Assembly: GCA_018897435.1 (NCBI GenBank)
Contig: JAHIKI010000002.1
Span: forward strand, 1 to 35,471
DNA from: Acidobacteriota bacterium
GTDB lineage: Bacteria > Acidobacteriota > Aminicenantia > UBA2199
Direction of reading: 5' to 3'
Length of the DNA: 35,471 bases
The translations under genes and the position numbers were made by a program. Below, one piece after another: positions 43 to 20,027 of the stretch (position 1 is the stretch's first letter; every line of letters starts with the position of its first letter). Below the pieces are notes generated by a model. It was not told the origin of the DNA and ran no database searches. It worked only from the letters and a program-made list of their open reading frames with translations.

Positions 43-246
43 TTAATCGGTCTGAGGTTTTTTTTTAGTTTCTTTGGTTTGCTTCCTGGTGCGTTTGAGT
101 TTGAGGTGCTCTTTGTCATCAATGATCCATTCAACCACTTCTCCACGCTCAAATTCCATGGCTCGAGCCAGTGCTGTCGGGAAATTAACGTACCACTGCT
201 CATTGTGAGCGCGATTGATTAGTTGGACTTTTGTGGGGTATCCCAT
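43..246 (-). CDS. Small AbrB/SpoVT-like DNA-binding protein
   Basis: A 67-residue protein. Residues about 5-50 have the layout of a swapped-hairpin AbrB/MazE domain: a first strand (VQLINRAHNEQWYVNFP), a short helix (TALARAMEF), and a GEVVEW turn and strand followed by IIDDKEHLKLKR. The C-terminus is a Lys/Arg/Thr-rich tail. AGGAGG lies 5 bases before the ATG and fixes the start. The family binds DNA as a dimer and commonly autoregulates, either as an antitoxin or as an accessory protein next to mobile elements. The perfect palindrome just upstream is a plausible target. The downstream partner lies off the window, so antitoxin and IS-accessory roles cannot be told apart. Confidence 0.6.
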   Translation of the reverse strand: MGYPTKVQLINRAHNEQWYVNFPTALARAMEFERGEVVEWIIDDKEHLKLKRTRKQTKETKKKPQTD

Positions 247-418: not shown

Positions 419-447
419 TTGACATTTTATTTATATGCAATTACAAT
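419..447 (+). promoter_or_regulatory. vapBC promoter
   Basis: TTGACA (419-424) and TACAAT (442-447) are spaced exactly 17 bp apart, a strong sigma70 match. The predicted start of transcription near 454 lies downstream of an in-frame ATG at 435. That ATG therefore cannot be the start codon if this promoter is used. Confidence 0.65.
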
Positions 448-464
448 ACAGATTGGAGATGCAG

Positions 465-668
465 ATGAGGACAACGCTTAATATTTCCGAAGACATGCTG
501 GGGGAGATATCCAGACTCTCGGGAGTGAAGTGCAAGACAGAGATCATCGACAAGGCCCTGCGCGAGATGCTGGACCGGCTACGGCGGCAGAAGCTGAAAG
601 GGGCATGGGGGAAGATCGCCATCGATATGAATGTAAGGGACCTCAGGCGGAAAGAACTGGATGAGTAA
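465..668 (+). CDS. vapB: VapB-type antitoxin
   Basis: A 67-residue protein beginning MRTTLNISEDML. The N-terminal strand and two helices fit a ribbon-helix-helix fold of the VapB family (residues 1-50), and the rest is a basic, amphipathic toxin-binding tail. The ATG at 465 was chosen because GGAG (455-458) lies 6 bases before it. The ATG at 435 lies inside the promoter spacer, and 459 is possible but too close to the GGAG. The stop overlaps the vapC start by 8 bases, so the two are translationally coupled. As in the family, it should bind and neutralise the PIN RNase and repress its own promoter. Confidence 0.82.
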   Translation: MRTTLNISEDMLGEISRLSGVKCKTEIIDKALREMLDRLRRQKLKGAWGKIAIDMNVRDLRRKELDE

Positions 669-1065
669 CTACCTGGTGGACACCTCGGTATGGGTCGAGT
701 TCCTGCGCGGGGAGAAAACCGCAATCAAAAAACGGCTGGAAAAACTTCTGGACGAAAACCGGGCCGACGTGTCGGGAATCATATTGGCCGAATTGCTGAC
801 CGGAATAGGCACTGAAAAGGAGCAGCGATTTTTGGAAGATTGCTTTCTCGGACTGCCCTTTCTGGAAGCGACCCGCGAAATATTCGCCGCAGCCGGGAAA
901 ATGGGGGCTGCCTTGCGCAAGAAAGGGATCACCATGCCCCTCTCCGACCTGCTGATCGCCTCTCTGGCCAAGACCCATGCCCTGACGGTGCTCACCCTGG
1001 ACAATCATTTCCAGACCCTGGCCCGGCCTTTAAACGTCCAAATAGAGCTGCTGAAAGGTTTTTAG
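661..1065 (+). CDS. vapC: VapC-type PIN-domain ribonuclease toxin
   Basis: A 134-residue PIN domain. The four acidic residues of the family are all present: D7 in YLVDTSVW, E44 in ILAELLTG, D96 in MPLSDLLIA and D114 in VLTLDNHF. They would bind the Mg2+/Mn2+ used for endonucleolytic RNA cleavage, typically of tRNA or rRNA in characterised VapCs. The target here cannot be read from sequence. The length is normal for the family and the gene appears intact. It overlaps vapB and is read from the same promoter. Two palindromic repeats follow within 110 bases and may help end transcription. Confidence 0.88.
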   Translation: MSNYLVDTSVWVEFLRGEKTAIKKRLEKLLDENRADVSGIILAELLTGIGTEKEQRFLEDCFLGLPFLEATREIFAAAGKMGAALRKKGITMPLSDLLIASLAKTHALTVLTLDNHFQTLARPLNVQIELLKGF

Positions 1066-1169: not shown

Positions 1170-1216
1170 GTAAAAATAAATCTACAAAGAATTCTCGACT
1201 GCTTTAACTTTCTTGC

Positions 1217-1241
1217 AAATTGGAAATGTCATTTCCAATTT
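1217..1241. promoter_or_regulatory. 25-bp perfect palindrome, candidate operator
   Basis: AAATTGGAAATG (1217-1228) and CATTTCCAATTT (1230-1241) are exact reverse complements around a single T. It ends 13 bp before the -35 box of the AAA ATPase gene. It has no U-run and is not GC-rich, so it reads as a protein-binding site rather than a terminator. Confidence 0.5.
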
Positions 1242-1284: not shown

Positions 1285-2454
1285 ATGGACATGAAATATA
1301 TCAAGAGAGATTTGGAATCGACCATCATCAGAAAACTGAAGACCGTACCGGTTATAGCTGTCATTGGTCCGCGGCAAAGCGGCAAATCGACACTCATCAA
1401 GAACATCCTGAAAAAAAGAGATAATTCCTTGTATTTGGATCTTGAAAGACCATCGGATTTGAATAAATTAAGAGATGCCGAGTCATATTTCACCCTGAAT
1501 AAAGACATGCTCATTTGTCTGGATGAAATCCAGAGGATGCCTGAAATATTTCCACTGATAAGAAGTCTGGTGGATGCCAATGGCAAAAAAGGTCAATTCA
1601 TTATTCTAGGATCGGCGTCAGCAAAATTGTTGAAACAAAGTTCGGAATCTTTGGCTGGCAGAATAACTTATCTTGAATTGACCCCGTTCCTGATTCCTGA
1701 AATCGCCGCTAAAAAGAATATGACAAAAATCAGGTCCTTATGGTTGCGGGGAGGTTTTCCGAGAAGCTATTTGGCAGAAAATGATTTGGAGAGCTTGGAG
1801 TGGAGAAATGATTTCATCAAGACATTTACTGAAAGAGACATTCCTCTTTTTGGTTTCAATATTCCCAATAAGGGGATTGAAAGAATATTCAGCATGTGCG
1901 CCCATATGCATGGTCAAATCCTTAATCGATCAAAGCTAGGCGAGGCGCTGGGAGTATCCCATCATACTGTTCAGCATTATTTGGAAATCCTGTCCGAAAC
2001 CTTTTTGTTAAGGATAATAAAACCTTATGAAAAAAATACAAAAAAAAGAATAATCAAATCTCCCAAAATATATATTCGCGATTCCGGTTTGCTGCACGCC
2101 TTGTTGCATATAAAAAATTACGATGACCTGTTCGGACATCCTGCTTTTGGAGCATCATGGGAGGGATTTGCCTTGGAAAATATTGTTTCTGAACTGCCAG
2201 GATGGGAGACTTATTTTTACCGGTCATCGTCCGGGGATGAAATCGATCTGGTCATTGAAAATGGAAAAAATCGCTATGCCTTGGAGTTCAAGGCATCGGT
2301 AGCGCCGACAGTAAGCAAAGGATTTTATAACGCAATTGAAACTCTTGCAATCGATGCGGCCTGGATTATTTGTCCCATAGAAGGCCAATATCCAATTGGC
2401 AAGAATGTGACAGTTTCTTCCCCTCGCGCATTCCTTGAGCAACTGAAATCATAA
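1285..2454 (+). CDS. DUF4143-type AAA ATPase
   Basis: 389 residues. The N-terminal ATPase has a Walker A motif, GPRQSGKST (28-36, Lys34), and a Walker B, LICLDE (76-81), followed by the sensor-like stretch FIILGSAS. A winged-helix-like middle (LGEALGVSHHTVQHYLEIL) precedes the C-terminal DUF4143 domain, which contains the restriction-nuclease-like pattern EIDLVIENGKNRYALEFK. This is a very common prokaryotic family of unproven function, often mobile and multi-copy. No Shine-Dalgarno precedes the ATG at 1285. The promoter position favours the ATG at 1291 on a leaderless transcript. It stands alone between repeat elements and is codon-wise more AT-rich than the core genes, consistent with acquisition. 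Confidence 0.85.
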   Translation: MDMKYIKRDLESTIIRKLKTVPVIAVIGPRQSGKSTLIKNILKKRDNSLYLDLERPSDLNKLRDAESYFTLNKDMLICLDEIQRMPEIFPLIRSLVDANGKKGQFIILGSASAKLLKQSSESLAGRITYLELTPFLIPEIAAKKNMTKIRSLWLRGGFPRSYLAENDLESLEWRNDFIKTFTERDIPLFGFNIPNKGIERIFSMCAHMHGQILNRSKLGEALGVSHHTVQHYLEILSETFLLRIIKPYEKNTKKRIIKSPKIYIRDSGLLHALLHIKNYDDLFGHPAFGASWEGFALENIVSELPGWETYFYRSSSGDEIDLVIENGKNRYALEFKASVAPTVSKGFYNAIETLAIDAAWIICPIEGQYPIGKNVTVSSPRAFLEQLKS

Positions 2455-2568: not shown

Positions 2569-2650
2569 CGAATTCTCACCCACGCGTGCCTTCAGGCACG
2601 ACAGGTATTCGCTGATTTTGATCTTCTTTGGGCAGGCCTTCACGCAGTTG
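2569..2650 (-). pseudogene. Remnant copy of the 3' end of sdhB
   Basis: These 82 bases align without gaps to the last part of sdhB (4326-4407). Read on the minus strand they encode ACPKKIKISEYLS, where the intact gene has ACPKKIKITEYLS. Over the 27 aligned codons 20 residues are the same, including the third-cluster Cys pair. There is no start, no upstream part of the gene and no matching stop. The similarity ends abruptly at 2650, 6 bases before the stop codon of the PIN gene. It is in the same orientation as sdhB. The divergence shows it is an old copy or came from another genome, not a recent duplication. Confidence 0.8.
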
Positions 2651-2656
2651 CTGTTA

Positions 2657-3070
2657 CTATTCCTTTCCGGATGCAATTTTTGTCAAGAAGTCTGCCGGGG
2701 AGAGAATGGGGATGCCGCGGTATTCGCTGATAGCCTGCAAGGCCTTGTCACCGCTGACGATCAGGTCGGCCTTCAAGGCGACGGCGCATTCTATGAACTT
2801 GTCGTCGTCGGGGTCTTTTTTGACAACCTTCAAGCGCGGTGTTTTGCGGGTGAATTCAATGTTCTGGCTCGAAGCCAAAAGCTTGAGCAATTCTTCCAGC
2901 TCCGTACCGGACTCCAAACCCAAATGCTGCAGCACCCGGACATACTCATCGAGGATGTCGGCTGAAAGGCACAGGCTGCTCCGGCCCTTTTTCCACAAAT
3001 CGATGATCTGCTTCGGTTTGCCGCCGAAAAACGAAGAAACAAAAACATTGGTGTCAATGACGGCTTTCAT
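2657..3070 (-). CDS. PIN-domain toxin of the TIGR00305 type
   Basis: 137 residues starting MKAVIDTNVF. The acidic PIN residues are visible: D6, E42 in DILDEYVRVL, the cluster in KKDPDDDKFIECA (86-90), and D108 in IVSGDKAL. The DPDDDKF...SGDK pattern is typical of the PIN group annotated as putative TA toxins. The start at 3070 follows the family's N-terminus. An ATG 39 bases upstream would add a non-family tail. The coding region overlaps the end of the upstream antitoxin by 17 bases, so the two form one operon. The predicted activity is RNA cleavage; its targets are unknown. Confidence 0.82.
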   Translation of the reverse strand: MKAVIDTNVFVSSFFGGKPKQIIDLWKKGRSSLCLSADILDEYVRVLQHLGLESGTELEELLKLLASSQNIEFTRKTPRLKVVKKDPDDDKFIECAVALKADLIVSGDKALQAISEYRGIPILSPADFLTKIASGKE

Positions 3071-3314
3071 GCTCTTGCCGGCGCACCGCCCGAACGGCCG
3101 CGGCCACATCGGTTGCTTTGACTTTTTTTGCTTTCAGTCTAAGTCCGATACGCTGCCAAAGGTCGTCGACGTAGCCTTCGATATCCCTTTCCCGGACATA
3201 ATCGCCCAGAATTTCCCTGACCATCTGGCTGTAGCTTTTTCCCTGCCTGCGGGCCAGCCGGCCGAGCTTTTCCTTGGTTTCGCCGTCGATCCTGATCAAC
3301 ATTTGCGTATTCAT
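3054..3314 (-). CDS. Ribbon-helix-helix antitoxin paired with the PIN toxin
   Basis: 86 residues. MLIRIDGETKEKLGRLARRQGKSYSQMVREIL is the expected strand-helix-helix of a CopG/RHH DNA-binding domain (residues 5-40, with S28 at the helix turn). The rest is a charged helical tail, likely the toxin-binding part. GAGG lies 5 bases before the ATG at 3314, and the promoter ends 19 bases upstream, so the start is well supported. Gene order (antitoxin first, overlapping toxin) is standard for type II modules. Four TATATCA repeats in its promoter are the probable binding site for autorepression. Confidence 0.78.
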   Translation of the reverse strand: MNTQMLIRIDGETKEKLGRLARRQGKSYSQMVREILGDYVRERDIEGYVDDLWQRIGLRLKAKKVKATDVAAAVRAVRRQEHESRH

Positions 3315-3477: not shown

Positions 3478-4197
3478 TCAATTAAACACCTTTTCCAGAG
3501 CCTGGTAGGCGCTGTGTACTTTCTCCACCAATTGAGGGATATCCTTTTCGAGGCCCGCTTTTCCGGCCGCTTCCAGAGCCTTGGTCTCGGCGAGCAATTT
3601 GGCGGCTGCGGCCTGGAAAGCCTCGATCTTGGCGGCCAGGCGCTTGGAGAGCGTGGCCTTGGTGACGGCTTCGGCCTTGGCCACCATGTCGGCGGCCACA
3701 TTGCCTATTTCGGCATATTTCTTTTCGGGCAGGTACTTATGGTAGACGACATAGAGGACCTTGTGGTAGGCGTCGACTTCCCTGGCCACCGGGCGGATAG
3801 CGCGCACCTGCATCTCGAAGCGCATGTGCAGCAGTTCTGCGGCATCGAGGAGCGCCTGGTCGTCGCTGCCGGCGGCGGCTTTCTTGTAGGCGTCCACGGC
3901 CCAGTTGAACTCGGCCAGGCCGCTTTCCCAGGCCTGTTTCTTTTCGCGCAAAATGCCAGGCAGGGCGGCGGCGTTGATCCTGGCCATCCCGGCCTCGATC
4001 TCGGGCAGAAAACCGCGCAGGGCATTATAATCCTTGGCCGGGAAGGCGGTGTGCCAGATGGGATAAATAATGTCATGGAAATCGATCAGCTCCGGAACCG
4101 TGCTATCGGTTTCGGGATCGGGTATCTGATCGCCGATCAGAACAAAACCCATGCTGAAAATGAAAATGAGCAAGGCAAAACGAATGGTCTTAATCAT
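3478..4197 (-). CDS. Secreted or lipid-anchored helical protein of unknown function
   Basis: 239 residues. The first 22 or so (MIKTIRFALLIFIFSMGFVLIG) form a hydrophobic export signal, so the protein should act in the periplasm. The rest is almost entirely helical: about six Ala/Glu/Lys-rich amphipathic segments, with HTAF, HMRFEMQVRAIRPVAREVDAYHKVLY and a C-terminal AKIEAFQAAAAKLLAE helix, suggesting a four-helix-bundle pair. There is no CxxCH heme site, so it is not a cytochrome c'. The start at 4197 was chosen over 4209 because GGAGG (4202-4206 on the opposite strand) falls 5 bases before it. It sits downstream of sdhB on the same strand but is separated by two palindromic repeats, one terminator-like. 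No family was recognised. Confidence 0.65.
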   Translation of the reverse strand: MIKTIRFALLIFIFSMGFVLIGDQIPDPETDSTVPELIDFHDIIYPIWHTAFPAKDYNALRGFLPEIEAGMARINAAALPGILREKKQAWESGLAEFNWAVDAYKKAAAGSDDQALLDAAELLHMRFEMQVRAIRPVAREVDAYHKVLYVVYHKYLPEKKYAEIGNVAADMVAKAEAVTKATLSKRLAAKIEAFQAAAAKLLAETKALEAAGKAGLEKDIPQLVEKVHSAYQALEKVFN

Positions 4198-4232
4198 ATA
4201 TTCCTCCATAAAATATTTGGCTTTTTTATCAT

Positions 4233-4261
4233 GTAGGGGAGGGTTTCAAGCCCTCCCTTAC
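4233..4261. repeat. Dispersed palindromic repeat, copy 4
   Basis: GTAGGGGAGGGTTT and CCCTCCCTTAC flank CAAG. The inner arms GGGAGGG and CCCTCCC are perfect. It is adjacent to copy 5, forming a tandem pair. Confidence 0.75.
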
Positions 4262-4280
4262 CTGAACTGCCAATCTGAAA

Positions 4281-4307
4281 AGGGCGGGTTTCAAAACCCG
4301 CCCCTAC
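4281..4307 (-). terminator. Palindromic repeat copy 5, likely terminator of sdhCDAB
   Basis: Read on the minus strand, GTAGGGGCGGGTTT is followed by TG, AAACCCGCCC and TTTT. This gives a strong GC stem with a short U-tract, 13 bases after the sdhB stop. It is a member of the dispersed palindrome family placed where it can end the sdh transcript. Confidence 0.55.
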
Positions 4308-4319
4308 ATGAAAACAGGT

Positions 4320-5027
4320 TTACAACGAGTTCTCGACCACCTTGACCTTCAGGCGCGACAGGTATTCGGTGATCTTTATCTTCTTGGGGCAGGCCTCCAT
4401 ACAGTTGAAGATGGTGTGGCAGCGCCAGACGCCGTTTTTATCGTTGACGATCTCAATACGCTGGTCGGCGCCATCGTCGCGGCTGTCGAAAATGAAGCGG
4501 TAGGCCTTGAGCAGGGCGGCCGGGCCCAGATACTCGCTGTTGGGCCATGAACTGGGGCAGGCAGCGCTGCAGGCGGCGCAAAGGATGCACAGGGTCGATT
4601 CGCCGATCGCTTCCAGTTGGGCGGGCGACTGGACGAATTCCTTGTCGGGCAGCGGTTTGTCCAGGAGCAGGTAAGGCTTGATGCGCTTCAGTTTGGCGAA
4701 GAAAGGATCCAGGTCGACCGCCAAATCCTTGATGATGTCGAACCCGGACAAGGGCTCGATCTTCAGTTTGCGGCCGAAGCGGTGGATGGGCGTTTCGCAG
4801 GCCAGCACGTTGCGGCCGTTGACCTTCATAGCGCAGGATCCGCAGATGGAACTGCGGCAGGAGCGGCGGTAGGCCAGGGTGCCGTCATGCTGCCAGTGAA
4901 TCTCGTTGAGCACGTCGAGAATGGTGGATTCATCTTCGACCGCGATGTCGAACACCTGCCAGTGCGGCTTCTCGTCTTTTCCCGGCTGGTATCTCAATAT
5001 TTTAGCGCTGATATCAATCATGGCCAT
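4320..5027 (-). CDS. sdhB: Succinate dehydrogenase/fumarate reductase iron-sulfur subunit
   Basis: 235 residues, the usual length for SdhB/FrdB. It carries electrons from the flavin in SdhA to quinone in the membrane subunits through three clusters. All ligands are present: C57, C62, C65 and C77 for [2Fe-2S] (CRSSICGSC...LAC). C147, C150 and C153 with C213 bind [4Fe-4S], and C157, C203 and C209 bind [3Fe-4S] (CILCAACSAACP; CHTIFNC; ACPKK). GGAGG lies 8 bases before the ATG. It is the last gene of sdhCDAB, 13 bases after sdhA. A diverged copy of its final 27 codons is found at 2569-2650. Confidence 0.95.
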   Translation of the reverse strand: MAMIDISAKILRYQPGKDEKPHWQVFDIAVEDESTILDVLNEIHWQHDGTLAYRRSCRSSICGSCAMKVNGRNVLACETPIHRFGRKLKIEPLSGFDIIKDLAVDLDPFFAKLKRIKPYLLLDKPLPDKEFVQSPAQLEAIGESTLCILCAACSAACPSSWPNSEYLGPAALLKAYRFIFDSRDDGADQRIEIVNDKNGVWRCHTIFNCMEACPKKIKITEYLSRLKVKVVENSL

Positions 5028-5040
5028 TTCTGCATCCTCC

Positions 5041-6774
5041 TTAGTATTTCCTTTCCTGGGGCTGGTACTGCGGGTAAATGACCACCCCCTTGCTGAAATC
5101 CAGAACGATCTTGCCGTCGCGGCGCCAGGCCAGCGTGTGCTTCAGCCACTCGCCGTCGTTGCGCTTGGGGAAATCGCTGCGGAAATGGGCGCCGCGCGAT
5201 TCCTGGCGCGCCAGGGCCCCCTCGACGATCACTTCCGAAAAACTGAGCAGGTTCTCCAGTTCCAGGGCCTCGATCAGGTCAAGGTTGAAGGCGTCACCAT
5301 GGTCGTCCACGGTCACCTGCCGGTAGCGTTCCTGCAGCTCCTTGATCATGACCAGCATTTTCAGCATGTCATCCTGGTTGCGGAAAACGCCGAGATACTT
5401 GGTCATGTTCTCCTGCAGCTTCTCGCGGATCGGGGCGTGCCTTTCCTTGCCCTGCCCGTTCCACAGCCGGTCAATCTTGCCCTGGGCAACCTCCAGCGGC
5501 TTGGCCGGAAGCCCGGCGAAACTGTTTCCCCGGCAGAACTCGGTCATGTGGATGCCGGCGATGCGGCCGAAGGTGGCCGCGTCCTGCAGGGAATTGGTGC
5601 CCAAACGGTTGGCGCCGTGCAATGACAGGCAGGAGGTCTCGCCGGCCGTGTACAGGCCCTTGACAACCGTGCCCGCGGCATCCTTGATCACTTCGGTACG
5701 CACATTGGCCGGGATGCCGCCCATGGAATAATGGGCCGTGGGCTGAATGGGCACGGCTTCCTTTATGCCGTCGACCTTCAGGTAATTCAAGGCCAAGTCA
5801 TAGATCTGAGGCAAGCGCTCCAGGATCTTCTCCCTGCCCAGGTGGCGCAGGTCAAGGTAGACATAATCCTTGCCGCCAATGCCGCGGCCCTCATTGATCT
5901 CGGTCTGTTCGGCCCGCGAGACCACGTCGCGCGGCGCCAGCTCCATTTTGGCCGCCGCATAAGTTTTCATGAAGCGTTCGCCCTTGTCATTGAGGATGTA
6001 AGCGCCCTCGCCGCGGGCGGCTTCGGAGAGCAGAATGCCGTGCTTGTAGAGTCCGGTCGGGTGGAACTGGACGAATTCCATGTCTTCCAGCGGCAGACCC
6101 GCTTCGAGCACCAGGGCCACGCCGTCACCGGTGTTGGCATGGGCGTTGGAAGTGACCTTCCAGGCCCGGCCGTAGCCGCCGGTGGCCAGCAAAACAGCGC
6201 GGGCCTGAAAAATATGCAAGCCGCCGCTACGGATATCCCAGGCCACCAGCCCCCTGGACACGTCCTCGCTGACCAGCAGCGACAACACCTGAAATTCGTT
6301 GAAAAAGAGGACGTTGTGCTGCAGGCACTGCTCGTAGAGAGTGTGCAGCAGCACGTGGCCGGTGACATCCTGGGCGAAACAGGCGCGCGGCGAGGAATGG
6401 CCGCCGAAGGGGCGCTGGTTGATGCGGCCGTCTTCGGTGCGTGAGAAGGGGACGCCCATATGTTCGAACTCGTACACGGTTTTGAGCGCCTCGTTGACGA
6501 AGCGCTCGATAATATCCTGGTCGGCCAGGTAGTCGCTGCCCTTGATGGTGTCGAACATGTGCGATTCCAGCGAATCTTCACTCACGTTGGCCAGGGCGGC
6601 GGCAATGCCCCCCTGGGCGCCGCCCGAATGGGAGCGGGTCGGATATACCTTGCTGATCACTGCCGCCGCCAAGCCGCTCTTGGCGACTTCCAGGGCGGCG
6701 CGCAGACCGGCCAGGCCGGCCCCGACGATCACGGTGTCAATTTTATGGTAATTCCTTGCTTCATCGATTTTCAT
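5041..6774 (-). CDS. sdhA: Succinate dehydrogenase/fumarate reductase flavoprotein subunit
   Basis: 577 residues. It oxidises succinate to fumarate (or the reverse) on covalently bound FAD at the cytoplasmic face of the membrane complex. [10 protein letters not shown] (18-27) is the Rossmann dinucleotide site. [10 protein letters not shown] with His49 is the flavinylation site. QFHPTGLY, the Arg in APRDVVSRA and the HYSMGG segment form the dicarboxylate site, and [13 protein letters not shown] is the C-terminal FAD signature. The protein is complete. It lies 12 bases after sdhD. The short C-terminal tail ([26 protein letters not shown] region) is normal for SQR-type subunits. Confidence 0.95.
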
Positions 6775-6786
6775 GGTGTCACTCCT

Positions 6787-7161
6787 TTACGCGACCGGCA
6801 GGGTGTAGAGCTTGATGATGGTCAGGGTGCCGACGAACAAAAGCACCGCTCCGACCGTAAGCAAAAGTCCGTACCAGACCAGGCGCCAGAATTTGTTGGC
6901 CGTGTAGTCTTCCAAAACCGACCAGACCCCGTTAAGGCCATGATACAACGCCGTGAGCAGGAAGGCGAACTGCAGCAGCGGGAACCACCAGCTGCCGGCC
7001 TTGGCCACGATCTCCTGATAGTTCACGGCCCGGCCCTTGGACAGGAAATGATAGGTGATGAAATGCAGCAGCAGCAGGACAAAAAGAATGACCGCGGAAA
7101 TGCGCTGTAACAGCCAGGGAAGCGAACCCGACCGGGAAGTTTGCTTGAAATCCTTGTTCAT
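6787..7161 (-). CDS. sdhD: Succinate dehydrogenase membrane anchor subunit D
   Basis: 124 residues with three transmembrane helices (about 16-40, 57-80 and 90-117). His residues in the first helix (LLLLHFITYHF) and second helix (ALYHGLNGVW) are placed like heme b ligands of SQR anchors. The ATG at 7161 overlaps the sdhC stop as ATGA, and TGGAGGG lies just upstream. A start 51 bases further upstream would run back into sdhC and add a non-family tail. It holds SdhAB to the membrane and helps form the quinone site. Confidence 0.82.
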   Translation of the reverse strand: MNKDFKQTSRSGSLPWLLQRISAVILFVLLLLHFITYHFLSKGRAVNYQEIVAKAGSWWFPLLQFAFLLTALYHGLNGVWSVLEDYTANKFWRLVWYGLLLTVGAVLLFVGTLTIIKLYTLPVA

Positions 7162-7544
7162 CCTGCCCTCCACTGCACATGTTGCAGAATCAAGTACGAA
7201 CCCAGCGCCCACAGGATAAAAGCCACGGCGATCAGCACGATGAACAACTTTTTATGCACCAGGGAGCCCTTGAAAAAATCGATGATCACGATGCGCACGC
7301 CGTTGAAGGCATGAAACAGGATGACTCCCCACAATCCGGTTTCCAGAAGCTTGAAGGGAACCCCGTTCAGGAAGGCCATCACATTGTTGAAGGCGGCCTC
7401 ACCATGGGTCAGGCTGTTGATGACCCAGATATGCAGGCACAGGTAAAAAATAAGCGCCAGGCCGGCGAGCCGATGGAGAATCCAAGCCCAGGAGCCGATA
7501 AAATTGTAATAGGTAAAATCATAGAAGCGCGTTCTTTTATACAA
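7158..7544 (-). CDS. sdhC: Succinate dehydrogenase cytochrome b subunit C
   Basis: 128 residues and three transmembrane helices. SWAWILHRLAGLALIFYL carries the HRxxG pattern of cytochrome b556 subunits, with a further His in CLHIWV and another in ILFHAFNGVRIV. Each anchor subunit thus has its own candidate His ligands, which would allow two hemes, though one shared heme is equally compatible. GGAGGAG lies 8 bases before the ATG. It is the first gene of the operon, preceded by a consensus-like promoter. Confidence 0.88.
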   Translation of the reverse strand: MYKRTRFYDFTYYNFIGSWAWILHRLAGLALIFYLCLHIWVINSLTHGEAAFNNVMAFLNGVPFKLLETGLWGVILFHAFNGVRIVIIDFFKGSLVHKKLFIVLIAVAFILWALGSYLILQHVQWRAG

Positions 7545-7579
7545 GCTTCTCCTCCTTAAATAAATATCAAAGAAAAAAC

Positions 7580-12720: not shown

Positions 12721-14844
12721 TCAGATGTTTCCCTTCCAGGCAGCCAGCGCTTTTTCAGCTATCTTTATTTGTTCGGAGCTGAGTTCAGCGGCATGGCGGT
12801 TGACCGCAGTTTCCATGTTGGCCAATGCCTGCTCGATCTTGCCGTTCTTGGCCAGGACCAGGGCGTAATTGAAGAAGAACTTCCCCTCCGGCTTGATGGC
12901 CGCGGCCCGGGCCAGCATCTGCTCGGCATCGGCCATGCTCCCGTAACGCGTGTTCAGCAGCGCCACCTTCATAAGCAGTTCGGGCTGGCCGGCGGCCTCT
13001 TCGTTTTCCAATAACTGGTTGTAAGCAGCCACGGCCTGCGCGTACTTTTGGATGGTGATCAGCAATTCAGCGTACTTGATGCGCAGGGACACGTTCTGCG
13101 GTTCGATGTCCAGCGCCTGGGCGAAATATTCGACCGCCTCAGCAGTGCGGTTCTGCTTCTCCCTGATCTCTCCCAGCAGGATCGTGACCCGGGTATTGCG
13201 CGGATTTTTGTCCAGGATCTCGCGGCAGCGGCTTTCGGCCCGGTCGTACTTTTTCATGTCGAACAAGGCCAGGGCCAGGATCTGTTTGAAGTTTTCGACA
13301 TCCGGGAAATCGTCGATCGCCTGTCGCAGGCAATTCAAGGCCGCGTTGTAGTTGCGCTTGGACATGTATATCTTGTATTTCAGGTTGTATACGTGCGGCA
13401 TCTTCAGCCCGGGGTTTTCGGCCAGCAATCGCTGCAAGTCGCTTTCAGCTGCCGCTATCTTTTTCTGGCCGATCAACTGGCTGATCTCCCTCAGGCGCGC
13501 GTCGATCAGCACCCCTTGCTTGGGATCGAGCGCCGTGGCTGCCTGGCTGGAAAAGGCCGAAATGTAACCCAGCGCCTGCAGCTGCTCCTTGTCGCCGGCG
13601 CTCAGTTCGCGGCGCGTCTCGCCACTGCTCTGGGAATGGTCGGCAATGAACTTGGCCAGGCGCTTGTCCAAGTTGCGGGCAAGCAAGTTTTTTCTCAAAA
13701 ACAAATTCAGTTTTTCAGCGGGGTCGACGCCCAGATCGTACAACTCGGGATCGGGCAGCGACACGTACTTGTAATCCTGGTGCAAGAGCCCGGTCAGCGG
13801 CGCCCAATTCATCTCCTCACGGCCGTACAGGCTTTCGAAGTAAATTATCCGCTCCTCTTTCTCGGAGCCACCTTTGAGCAGGGAGCGGAAGCTGCGTCCC
13901 TGTACCGCCCGCGGAATCTCGAAACCCAGCAGGTCCAGCACCGTGGGCATGACATCGACCAGTCCCACCCTGGCAGCCACCGTCCTGGCCTTGCCAAAAA
14001 GTTTGGGAGCGTAAAAGATCAGCGGCACCTTCAGGGCCTCCTCGTAGCAAAAGATGCCGTGGCCCTGTTCCACATGTTCGCCGAAGGCTTCGCCGTGGTC
14101 ACCGGCGATGACCACCAGGGTGCGCTCCAGCAGTCCGCGTTCGCGCAAGGACTGGATGACACGGCCGACCCAGACGTCGGTATAGGCGATCTCACCGTCG
14201 TACAATCCTTTCGGGTTTGCAGGATAACGTTTGGCGAATTCCAGCGGCGGCCGGTAAGGGGTGTGGGGATCGTAAAAATGGAGCCAGTAAAAAAATCTCC
14301 GCCCATCGTTCTGGCCCAGCCAGGCGCTGAATTTTTCAAAGACCTGCTCGGCCGGGATCTCAGACTTGTAGTGACGGATCATTTCGTGGGTGTCCAGGCT
14401 GTCGTCGTAGAGTGAAAAGCCCTGGTTGACCCCGAATTTGGATAACAGGACAAATGAGGCGACCACCGCCCGCGTGTCGTAGCCCCGGTCTTGCAGAACT
14501 TCGGCCAGGGTGATTTCGTTTTCCGGCAGAAAATAACTGCCGTTGTTGCGCACATTGTTGGCGATTGGGTAGCGGCCGGTGAAAAGGGCGGCGTGCGAGG
14601 GCAGGGTCAAAGGCACGGGGGCGTAGCCATTCTCAAAGCGGATCCCCTGCCTGGCCAGGAGATCGATGTTTGGCGTTTGCGCCGTTTTGTAGCCATAGGC
14701 CCCGATATGGTCGGCCCGGGTCGTGTCCAGGGTGATGATGAGAACATTCCATGCCGTCCGGGTTCCGCCGCGGCGCTGCAGGAAAAAAAGACCGCTGGCG
14801 GCCAGCAGCAACAGCAGGATGACCAATAATTTTCTTTTGCTCAT
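12721..14844 (-). CDS. Membrane-anchored sulfatase-fold hydrolase with TPR tail, paralog A
   Basis: 707 residues. A signal anchor (5-23) puts the enzyme outside the inner membrane. Residues 32-415 form an alkaline-phosphatase/sulfatase-fold domain with NVLIITLDTTRADHIG (metal Asp40), FYDPHTPY and GDHGEAFGEH (D249, H250). The position of the formylglycine Cys/Ser is Thr80 in VPLTLPSHAALFTG, and the following Arg is His84. That argues against a formylglycine sulfatase and for a Thr-nucleophile phospho- or sulfo-hydrolase/transferase. Residues about 450-700 are TPR repeats. It lies 49 bases after paralog B and is probably in its operon. GGAG precedes the ATG by 10 bases. Confidence 0.85.
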   Translation of the reverse strand: MSKRKLLVILLLLLAASGLFFLQRRGGTRTAWNVLIITLDTTRADHIGAYGYKTAQTPNIDLLARQGIRFENGYAPVPLTLPSHAALFTGRYPIANNVRNNGSYFLPENEITLAEVLQDRGYDTRAVVASFVLLSKFGVNQGFSLYDDSLDTHEMIRHYKSEIPAEQVFEKFSAWLGQNDGRRFFYWLHFYDPHTPYRPPLEFAKRYPANPKGLYDGEIAYTDVWVGRVIQSLRERGLLERTLVVIAGDHGEAFGEHVEQGHGIFCYEEALKVPLIFYAPKLFGKARTVAARVGLVDVMPTVLDLLGFEIPRAVQGRSFRSLLKGGSEKEERIIYFESLYGREEMNWAPLTGLLHQDYKYVSLPDPELYDLGVDPAEKLNLFLRKNLLARNLDKRLAKFIADHSQSSGETRRELSAGDKEQLQALGYISAFSSQAATALDPKQGVLIDARLREISQLIGQKKIAAAESDLQRLLAENPGLKMPHVYNLKYKIYMSKRNYNAALNCLRQAIDDFPDVENFKQILALALFDMKKYDRAESRCREILDKNPRNTRVTILLGEIREKQNRTAEAVEYFAQALDIEPQNVSLRIKYAELLITIQKYAQAVAAYNQLLENEEAAGQPELLMKVALLNTRYGSMADAEQMLARAAAIKPEGKFFFNYALVLAKNGKIEQALANMETAVNRHAAELSSEQIKIAEKALAAWKGNI

Positions 14845-14893: not shown

Positions 14894-16987
14894 TCATTGC
14901 CCGGCCGCTGCGGCAAGCAGGCGCCGCAACACGGCGCGGTCTGAAACAGAAAGCAACTGAAGGAATTGCGTCTGCAGCCGCTGCAGGTAATCGTTGGCCT
15001 CGGCTTTTCGTCCCGCGGCAATCAATGTGACCGCGATATTGAAATAGGCATCTATAAAATCGGGTTGTAACTCTAAAACTTTCTGCCAATCCGCGAGCGC
15101 CGCTTCAACCTGCCCGGTAAATTTGCGGGCGGCGCCCCTGCCGTTGTAGGCCGCGACCGATTTTGCATCCAACTCAATGGCCTTGTTGAAAGCGCCGACA
15201 GCCTTTTCACGCAGGGTCTCGTCTTTGGCCGCCACATAGCGGGCCAGGAACAAGGCGCCCAGGTTGGCGTAAACCATGGCATTTTGCGGATCCAGGGCCA
15301 GGGCTTTTTCGTAAGCCTCATAAGCCTTGCCGAAATTTTTCATGCGGAAAAAAGCGACCCCCAGGTAATTCCAATTGGCCGAATCGGCCGCATCAGCGGC
15401 CAGAACCTCTTTGAGTAAAACCACGGCTTCAGCACTGCGGTTTATTTCGGTTAAAAAAACGCCCAATTTCGACTTCAATTCCATACTGTCCGGCTTCCTT
15501 TGCAGCCCCTGGCGCAGGATATCCACCGCAACCTGCGGCTGGCGCAGATAATGCAGGGTATCGGCCAAATGCGCATAGGAACCTATGTCGTCCGGTCTGC
15601 TGGCGAGCACCTGCTCGTACAATTCCCGGGCTTCACGGTATTTTTTCTGGTTGAACAATTGGTTGGCGCTGCGCAGTTTGTTCTGGATGGGCAGCAGAGT
15701 TTTCAAATCATCGTCACGGGTGAAAACCGCTTTGGCCTCAACCTTGATCCCGGCCAAATACCCGAATGAGCGCAGCCGCCGTAATGTTTCCGCCGGCAAG
15801 GTCAGGCGCGCCGCGGCCGTTTCCGTTCCCGACATCTTGTTTTTCAATTCCGATAATTGCCGGTTCAGATCGGAAAGCTTGCGCGAGGAAATGATGTTCT
15901 TGCTTTCGGCAAAGTCCCGTTCGATATCGTAAAGTTCCTTGATGGGCTGGTCGATATATTTCAATTTGCCGTTAATGAACCCCTCCAGGGGCGCCCAGCC
16001 TTTGCTTAAAAAGGGACCTTTGGATTCAATATAGACCGGTCTTTCCGCTTCTGTCCCGCCGTTGAGCAGGGGCAGCAGTGACCGGCCCGCGAGCCCGGGC
16101 GGAGGAGCGCTGCCTAAAATATTGCAAACAGTGGGGAAAATATCAACATGGGACACAAGGGTCTTTATGGTCCTGGGCTGTGCCCCTGGCCGGCAAATGA
16201 TCAGGGGGATATGGATCGTGGAATTGTAGGCGAAAAAGCCGTGCTCGAATTCACCATGTTCGCCAAGGGCTTCACCGTGATCAGCGGTTATGATGATCAG
16301 AGTGGAAGCCAGGCGGCCCGATTTTTCCAGAAATGAAAACAATTTGCCAAGTTCGGCGTCCACATAGGCGATCTCACCGGCGTAGGGATCGGCGCTGTAG
16401 AGCTTGTCGAAGGGCGCCGGCGGAGCATAGGGAAAATGGGGGTCCCACAAATGCAGCCAGCAAAACCATTCGCCTTTCCGGCCCGCGATCCAATCCTGCG
16501 CCAGGGGGACGATTTCCGCGGCCAGGAAAGTGTCCTGGCTCAGGGGTTCACGATAAAGATCGAATCCCTGATCCAATCCGAATGTCTGGTCCAGCACAAA
16601 AGAACTTACAAAAGCGGCCGTGGCGTAGCCCTGGCCCCGCAACTGCTCGGCCAGGGTGAAAAAGCGTTTGTCGAGACAGTATCCGTTATTATCGGCAACG
16701 CCGTGATACAAAGGCGTGTGGCCGGTAAAGATATTGGCATGAGCGGGCAGGGTCATGGGCGTATGCGAGAAAGCACGGGTAAAAACCGAGCCGCGGCCGG
16801 CCAGGCGGTCGATATTGGGAGTCAACTGCCTCACCCCATAAACGCCGATGTGGTCGGCCCGGGTGGTGTCAAGGGTGATCAGCAGGACATTGCTAGCCTT
16901 CTCGCTTGCTTTGCCGCTTGCCGCGACAAGGGGCAGGAGCAAAAATCCCCATGCTGCCAATAAAAGAAAAAGCGGTTTTCTCTTCAT
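14894..16987 (-). CDS. Membrane-anchored sulfatase-fold hydrolase with TPR tail, paralog B
   Basis: 697 residues with the same layout as paralog A. An N-terminal signal sequence (about 5-23, AAS cleavage possible) is followed by NVLLITLDTTRADHIG (D40), Thr79 in TPMTLPAHANIFTG at the nucleophile site, WDPHFPY, and ADHGEALGEH (D236, H237). At least five TPR-like units fill residues about 430-670 (for example YREARELYEQVLASRPDD and FGKAYEAYEKALALDPQN). No Shine-Dalgarno precedes the ATG. A TGCTATAAT extended -10 box ends 7 bases upstream, so the message is probably leaderless. It is the first gene of a two-gene unit with paralog A. Its substrate cannot be read from sequence. Confidence 0.85.
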   Translation of the reverse strand: MKRKPLFLLLAAWGFLLLPLVAASGKASEKASNVLLITLDTTRADHIGVYGVRQLTPNIDRLAGRGSVFTRAFSHTPMTLPAHANIFTGHTPLYHGVADNNGYCLDKRFFTLAEQLRGQGYATAAFVSSFVLDQTFGLDQGFDLYREPLSQDTFLAAEIVPLAQDWIAGRKGEWFCWLHLWDPHFPYAPPAPFDKLYSADPYAGEIAYVDAELGKLFSFLEKSGRLASTLIIITADHGEALGEHGEFEHGFFAYNSTIHIPLIICRPGAQPRTIKTLVSHVDIFPTVCNILGSAPPPGLAGRSLLPLLNGGTEAERPVYIESKGPFLSKGWAPLEGFINGKLKYIDQPIKELYDIERDFAESKNIISSRKLSDLNRQLSELKNKMSGTETAAARLTLPAETLRRLRSFGYLAGIKVEAKAVFTRDDDLKTLLPIQNKLRSANQLFNQKKYREARELYEQVLASRPDDIGSYAHLADTLHYLRQPQVAVDILRQGLQRKPDSMELKSKLGVFLTEINRSAEAVVLLKEVLAADAADSANWNYLGVAFFRMKNFGKAYEAYEKALALDPQNAMVYANLGALFLARYVAAKDETLREKAVGAFNKAIELDAKSVAAYNGRGAARKFTGQVEAALADWQKVLELQPDFIDAYFNIAVTLIAAGRKAEANDYLQRLQTQFLQLLSVSDRAVLRRLLAAAAGQ

Positions 16988-17102: not shown

Positions 17103-20027
17103 TTAGAAGTTGACGCGGATGCCGAACTGGAAGCAGCCCGGGTTGGTGACCACCTGGACCTCGTCCTTGTACGCGCCGATCAGGTTTTCCAGTTTCAGGG
17201 TGGCCTGCGCGTTGGTCACGTTGTACCAGTCGACGAACAGGGTGGCGCTGGTGGTGTCGGAAATTTTGAACACCTTTTCCAGGCCGAGGTTGAGGTAAGT
17301 GAAGTTCGGCAGCCGGTCATCGCCGAACTTCTTGCCGCCTTCATAGAAAAAGTTATAGCCCAGGCCGCCGGGGAGATAGACCCGGACCCTGTAGGGGATG
17401 ACGTAACCTTCGCGGGATTGCAGGACCGCCGACAGGTTCAGCCCCCAGGGCAGCTGGTAGAGGCCGGAGAGCTTGAACATCCAGCGCGAGTTCACGTAGA
17501 TGCCGGTATAGCCGGAACCGCCCGATTGTGGAGCGACCACGGCCTCGTTGTAGAAGTCGAAATTGTTCTGGTTGAAGTGTTCGCTCTTGTCCATGTGGCT
17601 TGTCCAATCCTGGTAGGTGAAGGAGGCGTCGGCCATCCACTTGCTGGACAGCTTCTTGGTCAAGACCAGTTCCACGGCCATGTACTTTTCGTAGTCATTT
17701 TCGTAGTTGGTGAAATAGGTACCGACCGGTACTACCTTGCGCAGCCACCTGGGCACCTTGGTGTCGCCAACCGTGACGGTGCCGCTCTCGTACCAGTTGG
17801 CCGCGGTTTCGATCGAGTCGTTGGGCATGACGCCGATTTCCCGGCCCAGATTGTGGCGCTTCTTGTAGAAACCGGTGACGCCGATGGCGAGGTCTTCGCC
17901 CAGGGCCTTTTGAAAGGAGAGGGTCAGCTCGTCGAGCAGCGGTGTGTTGTAATTGTTGTCATATTGATTTTTCCTGATGCCCTTGCTGTAATCGATCCGT
18001 TGGGTATTGGTCCAGGATTGATAGCTGCCGGAGTAGCCGGGACCATAATAATAGTAGGCCCAGTTGAAGACCTCGTTGTACTGGGGAATGTCGTCGAGGT
18101 TGGCGTCCCACCAGTAGAAGTCGGTCTCGCGGTAGGGGAAGAGGGCGGAAGCCAGGCTGTTGCCGCTCTGCGAACCGTAGCGGGCCAGGGACAGCTTCAA
18201 GACATTTTTACCGTCGCCGCTGATGTCATAGGTCAGCGAAAATCTGGGAGAGATCGTCGACCAGGCCACCGGCGCGTCCATGGCCGGAACCATCATATCG
18301 CCCATGATATCGGTCACGATTTTTTCATTGTGATGGGGTGAACCCGGCTCATACCAGGTAAGCGCTTTCTGCAGGCCGCCGTTCAGGGCGCCGCTTTCCT
18401 TGTCGTAGCGCAGGCCGAGGTTGACATTCAGTTTGCCGAAGCTGGCGGTATCAGACAAAAAGAACGACATTCTGTTGAAGTTGACGTCGTAATTGGCGTT
18501 GGGAACGAACCAGACTTCGCCCATATTGAGGGGCATACCGTAGGCATCCAAATACCCTTGCCCATACTTGACGGCGATCCTCTTGTTGGGATAGAGGGTC
18601 TGGGTGGTGGTGTCGGCGTTGACATAATCCACGCCGAAGCGGATCTCGTGGTCTCCGCCGAGGATGTTCTCGGCGAAGTAGTTGCCGTTCAATGACAGGT
18701 TCAGCTGGTTGCGGTTGGTGATGTAATGGTAGCAGTTGTTCAGCCATTGATTAGGCGAGAAAATATAGAGCCATTCGGCGCCCACGTGGTCGCCGTCAGC
18801 ATTGATCGTGCCGCCGCGGGGGTCGAGGACGAAGCCGCCGTCGGTGTAGGCCACCTTGGCGTCGAGCATCAGGTTGCCCATGATCTGCTGGATGGCGCCG
18901 TAATAGACCCAGCCCGGGCCGTCCTGGTCGAACAGCGAGCCGTTGTTCTGCTGGGCCGAGGAGAGGACCGTGCGGCCCCACTTCTTTTTGGCATCGTGGG
19001 AGAGGTTCAGGTCGCCGCTGGTGTTGCCGAACTGGAAGTTCAGCTTGGCGTAGCCGGAGAGCAGCCAGGTGGCATCTTCGTCATTGGTGATTTTCCGGGC
19101 GTGGATGTCCTGAATAGCGTAGGAACCCATGAAGAAGATATGATCCTTGAGGACCGGGCCGCCGAAGTTCACGCCGTACTGGAAAAGGCGGTTGATGCCC
19201 GGGATGACGAAGTTCTTGCGGGTCTGGTAGGGTGTCAGGTCCTGCTTCATTTCCCAGGCCTTGTCCTGCACGTACAGGTGGAAGTCACCGGCAAAGCGGT
19301 TGCCGGCGCGCTTGGAAACGAAGTTCAACTGCACGCCGCCGGTCTGGGCCGTGATGTCGTTGGCGCCCACGGTGATCTGCATCTCTTCGTAAGCGTTCAT
19401 GTTCAGGTAGGCGGGGGCCGCGCCGATGGCGGAGTTGTCGGTGATGTTGGCGCCGTCCACGTTCCAGGTGGTGTCGTCGCCGTCAGCGCCGCCGGATGTG
19501 AAGCTGGACTGCTGGCCGGACTCGGCACCGCCGATGTCGACGCGATCCATCATCATACCCGGAGCCAGCGCCATGACAGTGAAGGGGTTGCGGGCGGTAG
19601 GCAGCGATTGGATCATTTCCTTGGAAACGTTCATGCCCACGGTGGTCTTGCGGGTATCGACCACGCCGGCCTTGGCGGTAACGATCACCTCTTCCTGGAT
19701 GGTGGTCGTTTCCATGGGCACGGTCAGGGTGACGTTCTTGCCGAGGGACAGGCGGATGCCCTTGCGGATAACGGTCTTGAAACCTTCGAGCTCGAACTTC
19801 AGCTCGTAGTTGCCGGGAGACAATTTCAGGAACCTGAAGTTGCCTACCTCGGAAGTGACCGCCGTAATCTTGCCGCCGACGTCACTGGTGAGGGTGATCG
19901 TCACGCCGGGAATGGAGGAACCGTCAGGAAGCACAACCGTACCGTAAATGTCGGCCAGTTGCACTTGGGCCACGGCGACTGAACTGATCAGTGCCAGGGC
20001 TGCAAAAAGTAGCACGAGTTTTTTCAT
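17103..20027 (-). CDS. TonB-dependent outer-membrane receptor with carboxypeptidase-regulatory-like N-terminus
   Basis: 974 residues. A signal peptide (1-20, cleavage after SVAVA) is followed by a CarboxypepD_reg-like beta-sandwich (about 24-108, IYGTVVLPDGSSIPGVTITL). A TonB-box-like EEVIVTAK comes next, then the plug (about 120-235, with SLPTARNPFTVMALAPG) and a long beta-barrel ending in GIRVNF, a C-terminal Phe outer-membrane signal. It should import a ligand too large for porins using TonB energy. The ligand is unknown, but three sulfatase-fold enzymes flank the gene, which suggests a scavenged anionic glycan or phospho/sulfo-ester. AGGAGG lies 5 bases before the ATG and a strong terminator follows. 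Confidence 0.92.
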   Translation of the reverse strand: MKKLVLLFAALALISSVAVAQVQLADIYGTVVLPDGSSIPGVTITLTSDVGGKITAVTSEVGNFRFLKLSPGNYELKFELEGFKTVIRKGIRLSLGKNVTLTVPMETTTIQEEVIVTAKAGVVDTRKTTVGMNVSKEMIQSLPTARNPFTVMALAPGMMMDRVDIGGAESGQQSSFTSGGADGDDTTWNVDGANITDNSAIGAAPAYLNMNAYEEMQITVGANDITAQTGGVQLNFVSKRAGNRFAGDFHLYVQDKAWEMKQDLTPYQTRKNFVIPGINRLFQYGVNFGGPVLKDHIFFMGSYAIQDIHARKITNDEDATWLLSGYAKLNFQFGNTSGDLNLSHDAKKKWGRTVLSSAQQNNGSLFDQDGPGWVYYGAIQQIMGNLMLDAKVAYTDGGFVLDPRGGTINADGDHVGAEWLYIFSPNQWLNNCYHYITNRNQLNLSLNGNYFAENILGGDHEIRFGVDYVNADTTTQTLYPNKRIAVKYGQGYLDAYGMPLNMGEVWFVPNANYDVNFNRMSFFLSDTASFGKLNVNLGLRYDKESGALNGGLQKALTWYEPGSPHHNEKIVTDIMGDMMVPAMDAPVAWSTISPRFSLTYDISGDGKNVLKLSLARYGSQSGNSLASALFPYRETDFYWWDANLDDIPQYNEVFNWAYYYYGPGYSGSYQSWTNTQRIDYSKGIRKNQYDNNYNTPLLDELTLSFQKALGEDLAIGVTGFYKKRHNLGREIGVMPNDSIETAANWYESGTVTVGDTKVPRWLRKVVPVGTYFTNYENDYEKYMAVELVLTKKLSSKWMADASFTYQDWTSHMDKSEHFNQNNFDFYNEAVVAPQSGGSGYTGIYVNSRWMFKLSGLYQLPWGLNLSAVLQSREGYVIPYRVRVYLPGGLGYNFFYEGGKKFGDDRLPNFTYLNLGLEKVFKISDTTSATLFVDWYNVTNAQATLKLENLIGAYKDEVQVVTNPGCFQFGIRVNF

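Follow-up and report, generated by a model that had tools for sequence, protein, structure and literature searches.

The succinate dehydrogenase gene sdhB of an Acidobacteriota bacterium was found to be a mosaic that is followed, within a few kilobases, by two stranded copies of its own 3′ end. The window analyzed here is a stretch of 35,471 nt from a MAG (2.19 Mb, 60% complete, 105 contigs) whose relatives are mostly Candidatus Aminicenantes MAGs. One remnant (R2) is a decaying copy of the last 27 codons that resembles sdhB of the two closest comparison genomes, G007 and G009; the other (R3) lies further downstream, and both sit in a slot whose content varies between relatives. We consider it probable, on comparisons of sequence, that a foreign sdhB tail entered together with cargo genes by homologous displacement and pushed the native tail aside. 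Comparisons were made against the 14 genus genomes that yielded an sdhB, 34 family genomes, and 141 genomes of the class; comparison genomes are labeled G001 to G019, with G019 belonging to another genus, and "own" denotes the sdhB of the window genome.

On the minus strand, sdhA and sdhB are followed by a palindromic repeat, a gene for a 243-aa protein, an RHH/PIN pair, R2, and another palindromic repeat. Left of this repeat come an ATPase gene, a hairpin, R3, a palindromic repeat, and a VapBC pair. The features are as follows.

5041–6774, minus strand: sdhA, upstream of sdhB.
4320–5027, minus strand: sdhB, intact, a mosaic gene by its jump in third-position divergence (NCBIfam PRK05950, succinate dehydrogenase iron-sulfur subunit, 305 bits).
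4320–4790, minus strand: putative replaced tract, the last ~470 nt of sdhB, apparently of a lineage outside the G007/G009 type (third-position differences; 5′ limit approximate).
4226–4314, no strand: palindromic (REP-like) repeat, a self-inverted match starting ~10 nt past the sdhB stop.
3478–4209, minus strand: gene for a 243-aa secreted protein with no Pfam or NCBIfam match, a recurrent sdhB neighbor in the genus.
3054–3314, minus strand: RHH antitoxin gene (Pfam RHH_1, E 2.5e-5).
2657–3109, minus strand: PIN-domain toxin gene, intact (Pfam PIN_3, E 1.4e-22; TIGR00305 above cut-off).
2569–2650, minus strand: R2, stranded and apparently decaying sdhB 3′ end, 27 codons, G007/G009-like (66/82 bases, placement, changes spread over codon positions).
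2494–2545: second type of palindromic repeat, directly behind R2.
1285–2454, plus strand: ATPase gene between R2 and R3 (Pfam AAA_14, DUF4143).
1195–1262, no strand: strong hairpin adjoining R3 (−17.9 kcal/mol, z −4.8).
About 1182–1217, minus strand: R3, second stranded sdhB 3′ end (KKVKAVENSL-stop), then spacer and REP as behind the real sdhB; 5′ limit uncertain.
435–1065, plus strand: VapBC toxin-antitoxin pair (VapB and PIN Pfam matches; VapC NF047959).

By profile matches, both RHH/PIN and VapBC are predicted type II toxin-antitoxin pairs, each with an antitoxin gene adjoining a PIN toxin gene. Elsewhere in the window, three paralogous sulfatase-like proteins of 707, 697, and 714 aa with C-terminal repeat regions (12721–14844 and 14894–16987, minus strand; 20254–22398, plus strand) flank a 974-aa outer-membrane-receptor-like gene (17103–20027, minus strand), the families being named by eye, and account for the long inverted repeats of the window. 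At the contig edge, a 67-aa protein (43–246, minus strand) with no Pfam or NCBIfam match is possibly a small insertion-sequence gene at which the assembly broke.

R2 had been described in the initial annotation as a diverged copy of the sdhB end, and its measurements were reproduced: positions 2569–2650 align without gaps to 4326–4407 on the same strand and in the right frame, with 66 of 82 bases and 20 of the last 27 sdhB residues identical (NCVKACPKKIKISEYLSCLKARVGENS versus NCMEACPKKIKITEYLSRLKVKVVENS), and the match ends 6 bases from the PIN stop codon. At its other end the match stops at the ENS codons, the final L and the stop of sdhB not being kept. The next best ungapped 82-mer within the window reaches 39/82 forward and 43/82 reverse, while the best matches in 300 shuffled windows average 38 and never exceed 43. 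A search of the whole genome with sdhB returned as close matches only the gene itself and R2 (E 3.9e-6), all others being distant (E > 0.003). As an RNA element R2 was rejected, its overall folding being not unusual (z 0.07), though a short hairpin within it is stable.

The substitutions in R2 point both to its decay and to its origin. Eleven of its changes are seen nowhere else in the genus and fall 3:4:4 over codon positions 1, 2, and 3, whereas live sdhB copies in the genus differ almost solely at third positions; judged by this pattern, R2 is decayed regardless of codon position. Six of these private changes (bases 52 and 62–66) cluster and yield a perfect CGTGCC/GGCACG hairpin; the cluster may be a single, perhaps templated, event, so that the independent changes could number fewer than 11. 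In window coordinates, an imperfect sdhB palindrome has become at 2590–2610 a perfect 6-bp hairpin, CGTGCC-TGAA-GGCACG, which suggests a template-switch mutation. At six sites G007 and G009 agree and own differs, and R2 sides with G007/G009 at five of them; its states at sites 7 and 72 are absent or nearly so among the other genus members, and its state at site 78 is found in one of them. A tree likewise groups R2 with G007/G009 and apart from own (94/86), a placement that, with only 82 nt, depends on a handful of sites. Given that the gene is G007/G009-like in its 5′ part, R2 is most simply read as the original sdhB tail of this genome. The 16 bases by which R2 and the present sdhB end differ are spread along the copy and leave no long identical core.

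Evidence that the present end of sdhB differs in ancestry from the rest of the gene came from comparing its two parts. Upstream of the tract, own is 92–100% identical to G007/G009 and 66–94% to the remaining genomes; over the last ~450 nt of sdhB it stands about equally far from G007/G009 (84–92%) and from most others (79–93%). Third codon positions were used to discount protein conservation. Between own and G007 they differ at 42 of 156 sites in the last 156 codons (27%) versus 82 of 656 upstream (12.5%; Fisher 2.1e-5), with a similar jump between own and G009 (p 1.6e-4), values that are somewhat optimistic because the boundary at 4790 was picked after inspection of the data. None of nine control pairs (G007–G009, own–G014, G007–G014, own–G013, G007–G013, own–G001, G007–G001, own–G002, and G007–G002) displayed a significant jump (p 0.08–0.92). 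In trees, own is sister to G007+G009 for both parts of sdhB, with a path of 0.06 for the 5′ part versus 0.14 for the 3′ part. A different lineage for the present end than for the 5′ part is supported by these sequence comparisons. Since own still joins G007/G009 in the 3′-tract tree (95/94), the donor would be a near rather than a distant relative, and thus probably a closely related but separate lineage. The 243-aa gene follows the pattern of the sdhB 3′ tract (own–G007/G009 identity about 84%, path 0.22).

Fitted to the own–G007 differences over a 3.2 kb upstream stretch, a single change-point model located the principal break at 2251 nt from the stop, drawn there by the near identity of the farthest part, and was replaced by the third-position comparison. 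Separately, identity to G007/G009 rises to 97–100% at 6570–7560, compared with about 92–97% over most of sdhA (5041–6570), which hints at a further recent exchange.

R3, a third sdhB end in the window, was absent from the initial annotation. Read on the minus strand, it consists of KKVKAVENSL-stop, ~10 nt, and a GTAGGGG palindrome, the same layout as behind sdhB of the window genome, G007, G009, and others; a comparison of sdhB tails also found the REP-like repeat similarly placed after the stop in several relatives. With the 116-nt surroundings of R3 as the query against the 34 family genomes, the best matches outside the window were the sdhB 3′ ends of G009, G007, and G019. A 23-base core pattern, in which one position may be A or G, has perfect matches only in the window and at the sdhB 3′ end of G019 among the 141 class genomes; allowing up to three mismatches gives five places, and two for the reversed control. 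The 5′ limit of R3 is uncertain because the stem of the neighboring hairpin, a very stable, A+T-rich structure between R3 and the ATPase gene, runs into R3 with one arm. R3 resembles sdhB of G019, and its differences from the genus lie mostly at third positions, so plain decay of a native end does not account for it. An arrival from elsewhere together with the A+T-rich ATPase segment is possible, the ATPase gene having a G+C content of about 40% versus ~60% for sdhA/B, and the position of R3 beside VapBC suggests an earlier event or layer of a similar kind.

All 14 genus genomes with sdhB carry a single copy of the sdhB end. A full second sdhB/frdB, which the initial annotation had named as the mark of a decayed paralog, was looked for and not found in the genus. 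Among the 34 family genomes, no other genome yielded a second R2-like fragment in protein searches, which would miss a fragment the size of R3. What follows sdhB differs between most relatives: in the genus, the slot holds the 243-aa gene (five genomes), other secreted proteins, a PhoH-like gene, VapBC (three genomes), or is skipped so that a large convergent gene follows directly, with names assigned by eye except for the Pfam-tested genes of the window. We conclude from this variety that sdhB borders a variable slot. The 243-aa gene, located directly behind sdhB in 5 of 14 relatives (G007, G009, G011, G013, and G001; 78–84% identity), is normal content of the slot, and the proposal that everything between R2 and the gene end is accessory had to be given up. 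The VapBC pair of the window also occurs in the slot of G001, G002, and G012 (81–84% DNA identity). Within the reach of their contigs, none of the 14 genus genomes has RHH/PIN or the window's ATPase behind sdhB; the nearest relatives of PIN/RHH in a donor search are only 55–61% identical and belong to other genera, and the search found no donor genome. The palindromic repeat at 2494–2545 has more than 20 similar places in G006. The empty-site check suggested initially was run as well: none of the 14 genomes has the sequence left of 2569 directly after sdhB. Because the repeat and ATPase segment left of R2 differs from what follows sdhB in G007/G009, a one-step displacement is insufficient, and at least one further event is needed.

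The incoming DNA would have been a chromosome fragment of a related but distinct species, carrying its own sdhB 3′ end, the palindromic repeat, the 243-aa gene, and the RHH/PIN pair. A homologous crossover inside the gene, about 470 nt ahead of the sdhB stop, would have joined one end, while the far end would have been joined without homology just past the PIN stop, 82 nt before the native sdhB end. The result would be a whole sdhB with a foreign tail and a native tail (R2) ~1.8 kb further downstream, decaying since; together, R3 and R2 would form a stack of displaced gene ends within the slot. The two remnants, the mosaic gene, the likeness of R2 to G007/G009, and the variable slot are shown by the sequences; from them we infer the direction of transfer, the illegitimate joint, and the order of events. 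Because the homologous tract is long and a recombinase is lacking, homologous recombination at one end and illegitimate joining at the other, as in homology-facilitated illegitimate recombination (HFIR), is favored over site-specific integration. Of the original proposal, the notion of incoming DNA with its own sdhB end is borne out by the mosaic gene and the native-like R2; integration aimed at the last bases of the gene is not, given a tract of ~470 nt and no integrase. ComEC, present in 11 of 16 genus genomes and not seen in this incomplete one, makes uptake of linear DNA plausible. A single crossover of a circle with only the 82-nt homology was rejected on account of the ~470-nt replaced tract; a circle with longer homology, trimmed later by deletion, is possible.

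Integrative elements that attach at gene 3′ ends restore the end of the gene and leave the displaced end at their far side, and tandem accretion of such elements and of their cis-mobilizable remnants produces several copies. An integrase-driven element, or a cis-mobilizable remnant, attaching at the last ~80 nt of sdhB, with R2 and R3 as distal sites of two tandem insertions, would account for the shared orientation, the location at the extreme 3′ end of a conserved gene that stays intact, and the ending of both remnants in the same few codons. We nevertheless regard it as unlikely, as there is no recombinase gene between the ends, the replaced tract of about 470 nt is not confined to the last 82, other family genomes have no comparable remnant, and no long core is identical between R2 and the present end, although cores may drift after inactivation. 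PF00589 (tyrosine recombinase) is found in all genus genomes and on none of the sdhB contigs, several of which are short; serine recombinases fall outside this profile. A phage search with the sdhB end gave only three matches (37–52% identity), and literature searches found no paper on sdhB as an integration site and nothing on "minimal mobile element".

A local tandem duplication in this lineage, covering the sdhB end with the DNA downstream of it and later decaying, fits two copies on the same strand and close together, with palindromic repeats behind them that could promote unequal exchange. It is similarly improbable: R2 lacks most private states of the present sdhB and has the G007/G009 state at the majority of informative sites, the 3′ tract itself differs in ancestry from the 5′ part, and no duplicated 243-aa gene or other partner accompanies R2. 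That the ends were already stranded in the incoming DNA, their history belonging to the donor, would suit the A+T-rich ATPase segment and the likeness of R3 to sdhB of another genus (G019, all 23 core bases matching with the A/G position open), but R2 resembles the version expected from the gene's own 5′ part, and we give this account little credence. MAG chimerism is possible in an assembly this incomplete and fragmented. An assembly that switched between co-occurring strains inside sdhB, making the mosaic only apparent, is nonetheless very improbable as the full explanation, since such a switch would not yield truncated sdhB ends abutting unrelated genes and structures (the PIN stop, the hairpin); R2 and R3 therefore stand even if the mosaic falls.

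Under homologous displacement, stranded gene ends beside accessory genes would directly record the entry of toxin-antitoxin-type gene sets without integrases or transposases, and the record at sdhB, with its mosaic gene, displaced native-like tail, and second tail, is unusually complete. How frequent this route is in uncultured bacteria could be gauged by scanning for short 3′-end copies of housekeeping genes that lie next to accessory genes. A bolder and rather doubtful extension is that the slot in this genus captures gene sets repeatedly, successive sets being stacked by recombination with the housekeeping gene as anchor and each leaving a fossil tail; the number and similarity of tails would then record acquisitions without mobile-element machinery.

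The non-homologous joint in HFIR often involves a few bases of microhomology. Combining a homologous crossover at one end with a non-homologous joint at the other, HFIR yields a net gain of non-homologous genes and has been shown experimentally (PMC3240628, with references there to S. pneumoniae, A. baylyi, and P. stutzeri). The sdhB locus shares its homologous tract at one end (~470 nt of sdhB, p 2e-5), acquired genes without a counterpart at the locus in the nearest relatives, and, judged on few sites, a displaced native-like gene end at the far junction, where R2 abuts the PIN stop; it differs in being inferred from sequence in an uncultured lineage. Sequential displacement is also known from T6SS effector genes in Vibrio cholerae, where it leaves behind orphaned immunity genes along with an effector 3′ end that has shifted, and where HFIR was proposed as the mechanism (PMC5361080). 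In both systems, one module follows another, each anchored through homology to a conserved part, and old ends are shifted downstream in an array, but the anchor here is a housekeeping gene of unchanged function, the cargo (toxin-antitoxin pairs, ATPase) lies behind it uncoupled, and there are only two remnants. Small variable segments at conserved bacterial loci, inferred from whole-genome alignments of one species and partly attributed to homology-assisted illegitimate recombination, likewise consist of short gene sets exchanged between conserved flanks (PMC2884548); at sdhB, it is the displaced gene end that preserves the record of the event. Integrative elements at gene 3′ ends differ from the locus by their recombinase, conserved core, and lack of a long replaced tract. 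The mechanism is already known, and the locus is a new, fairly well-documented, and readable example of it.
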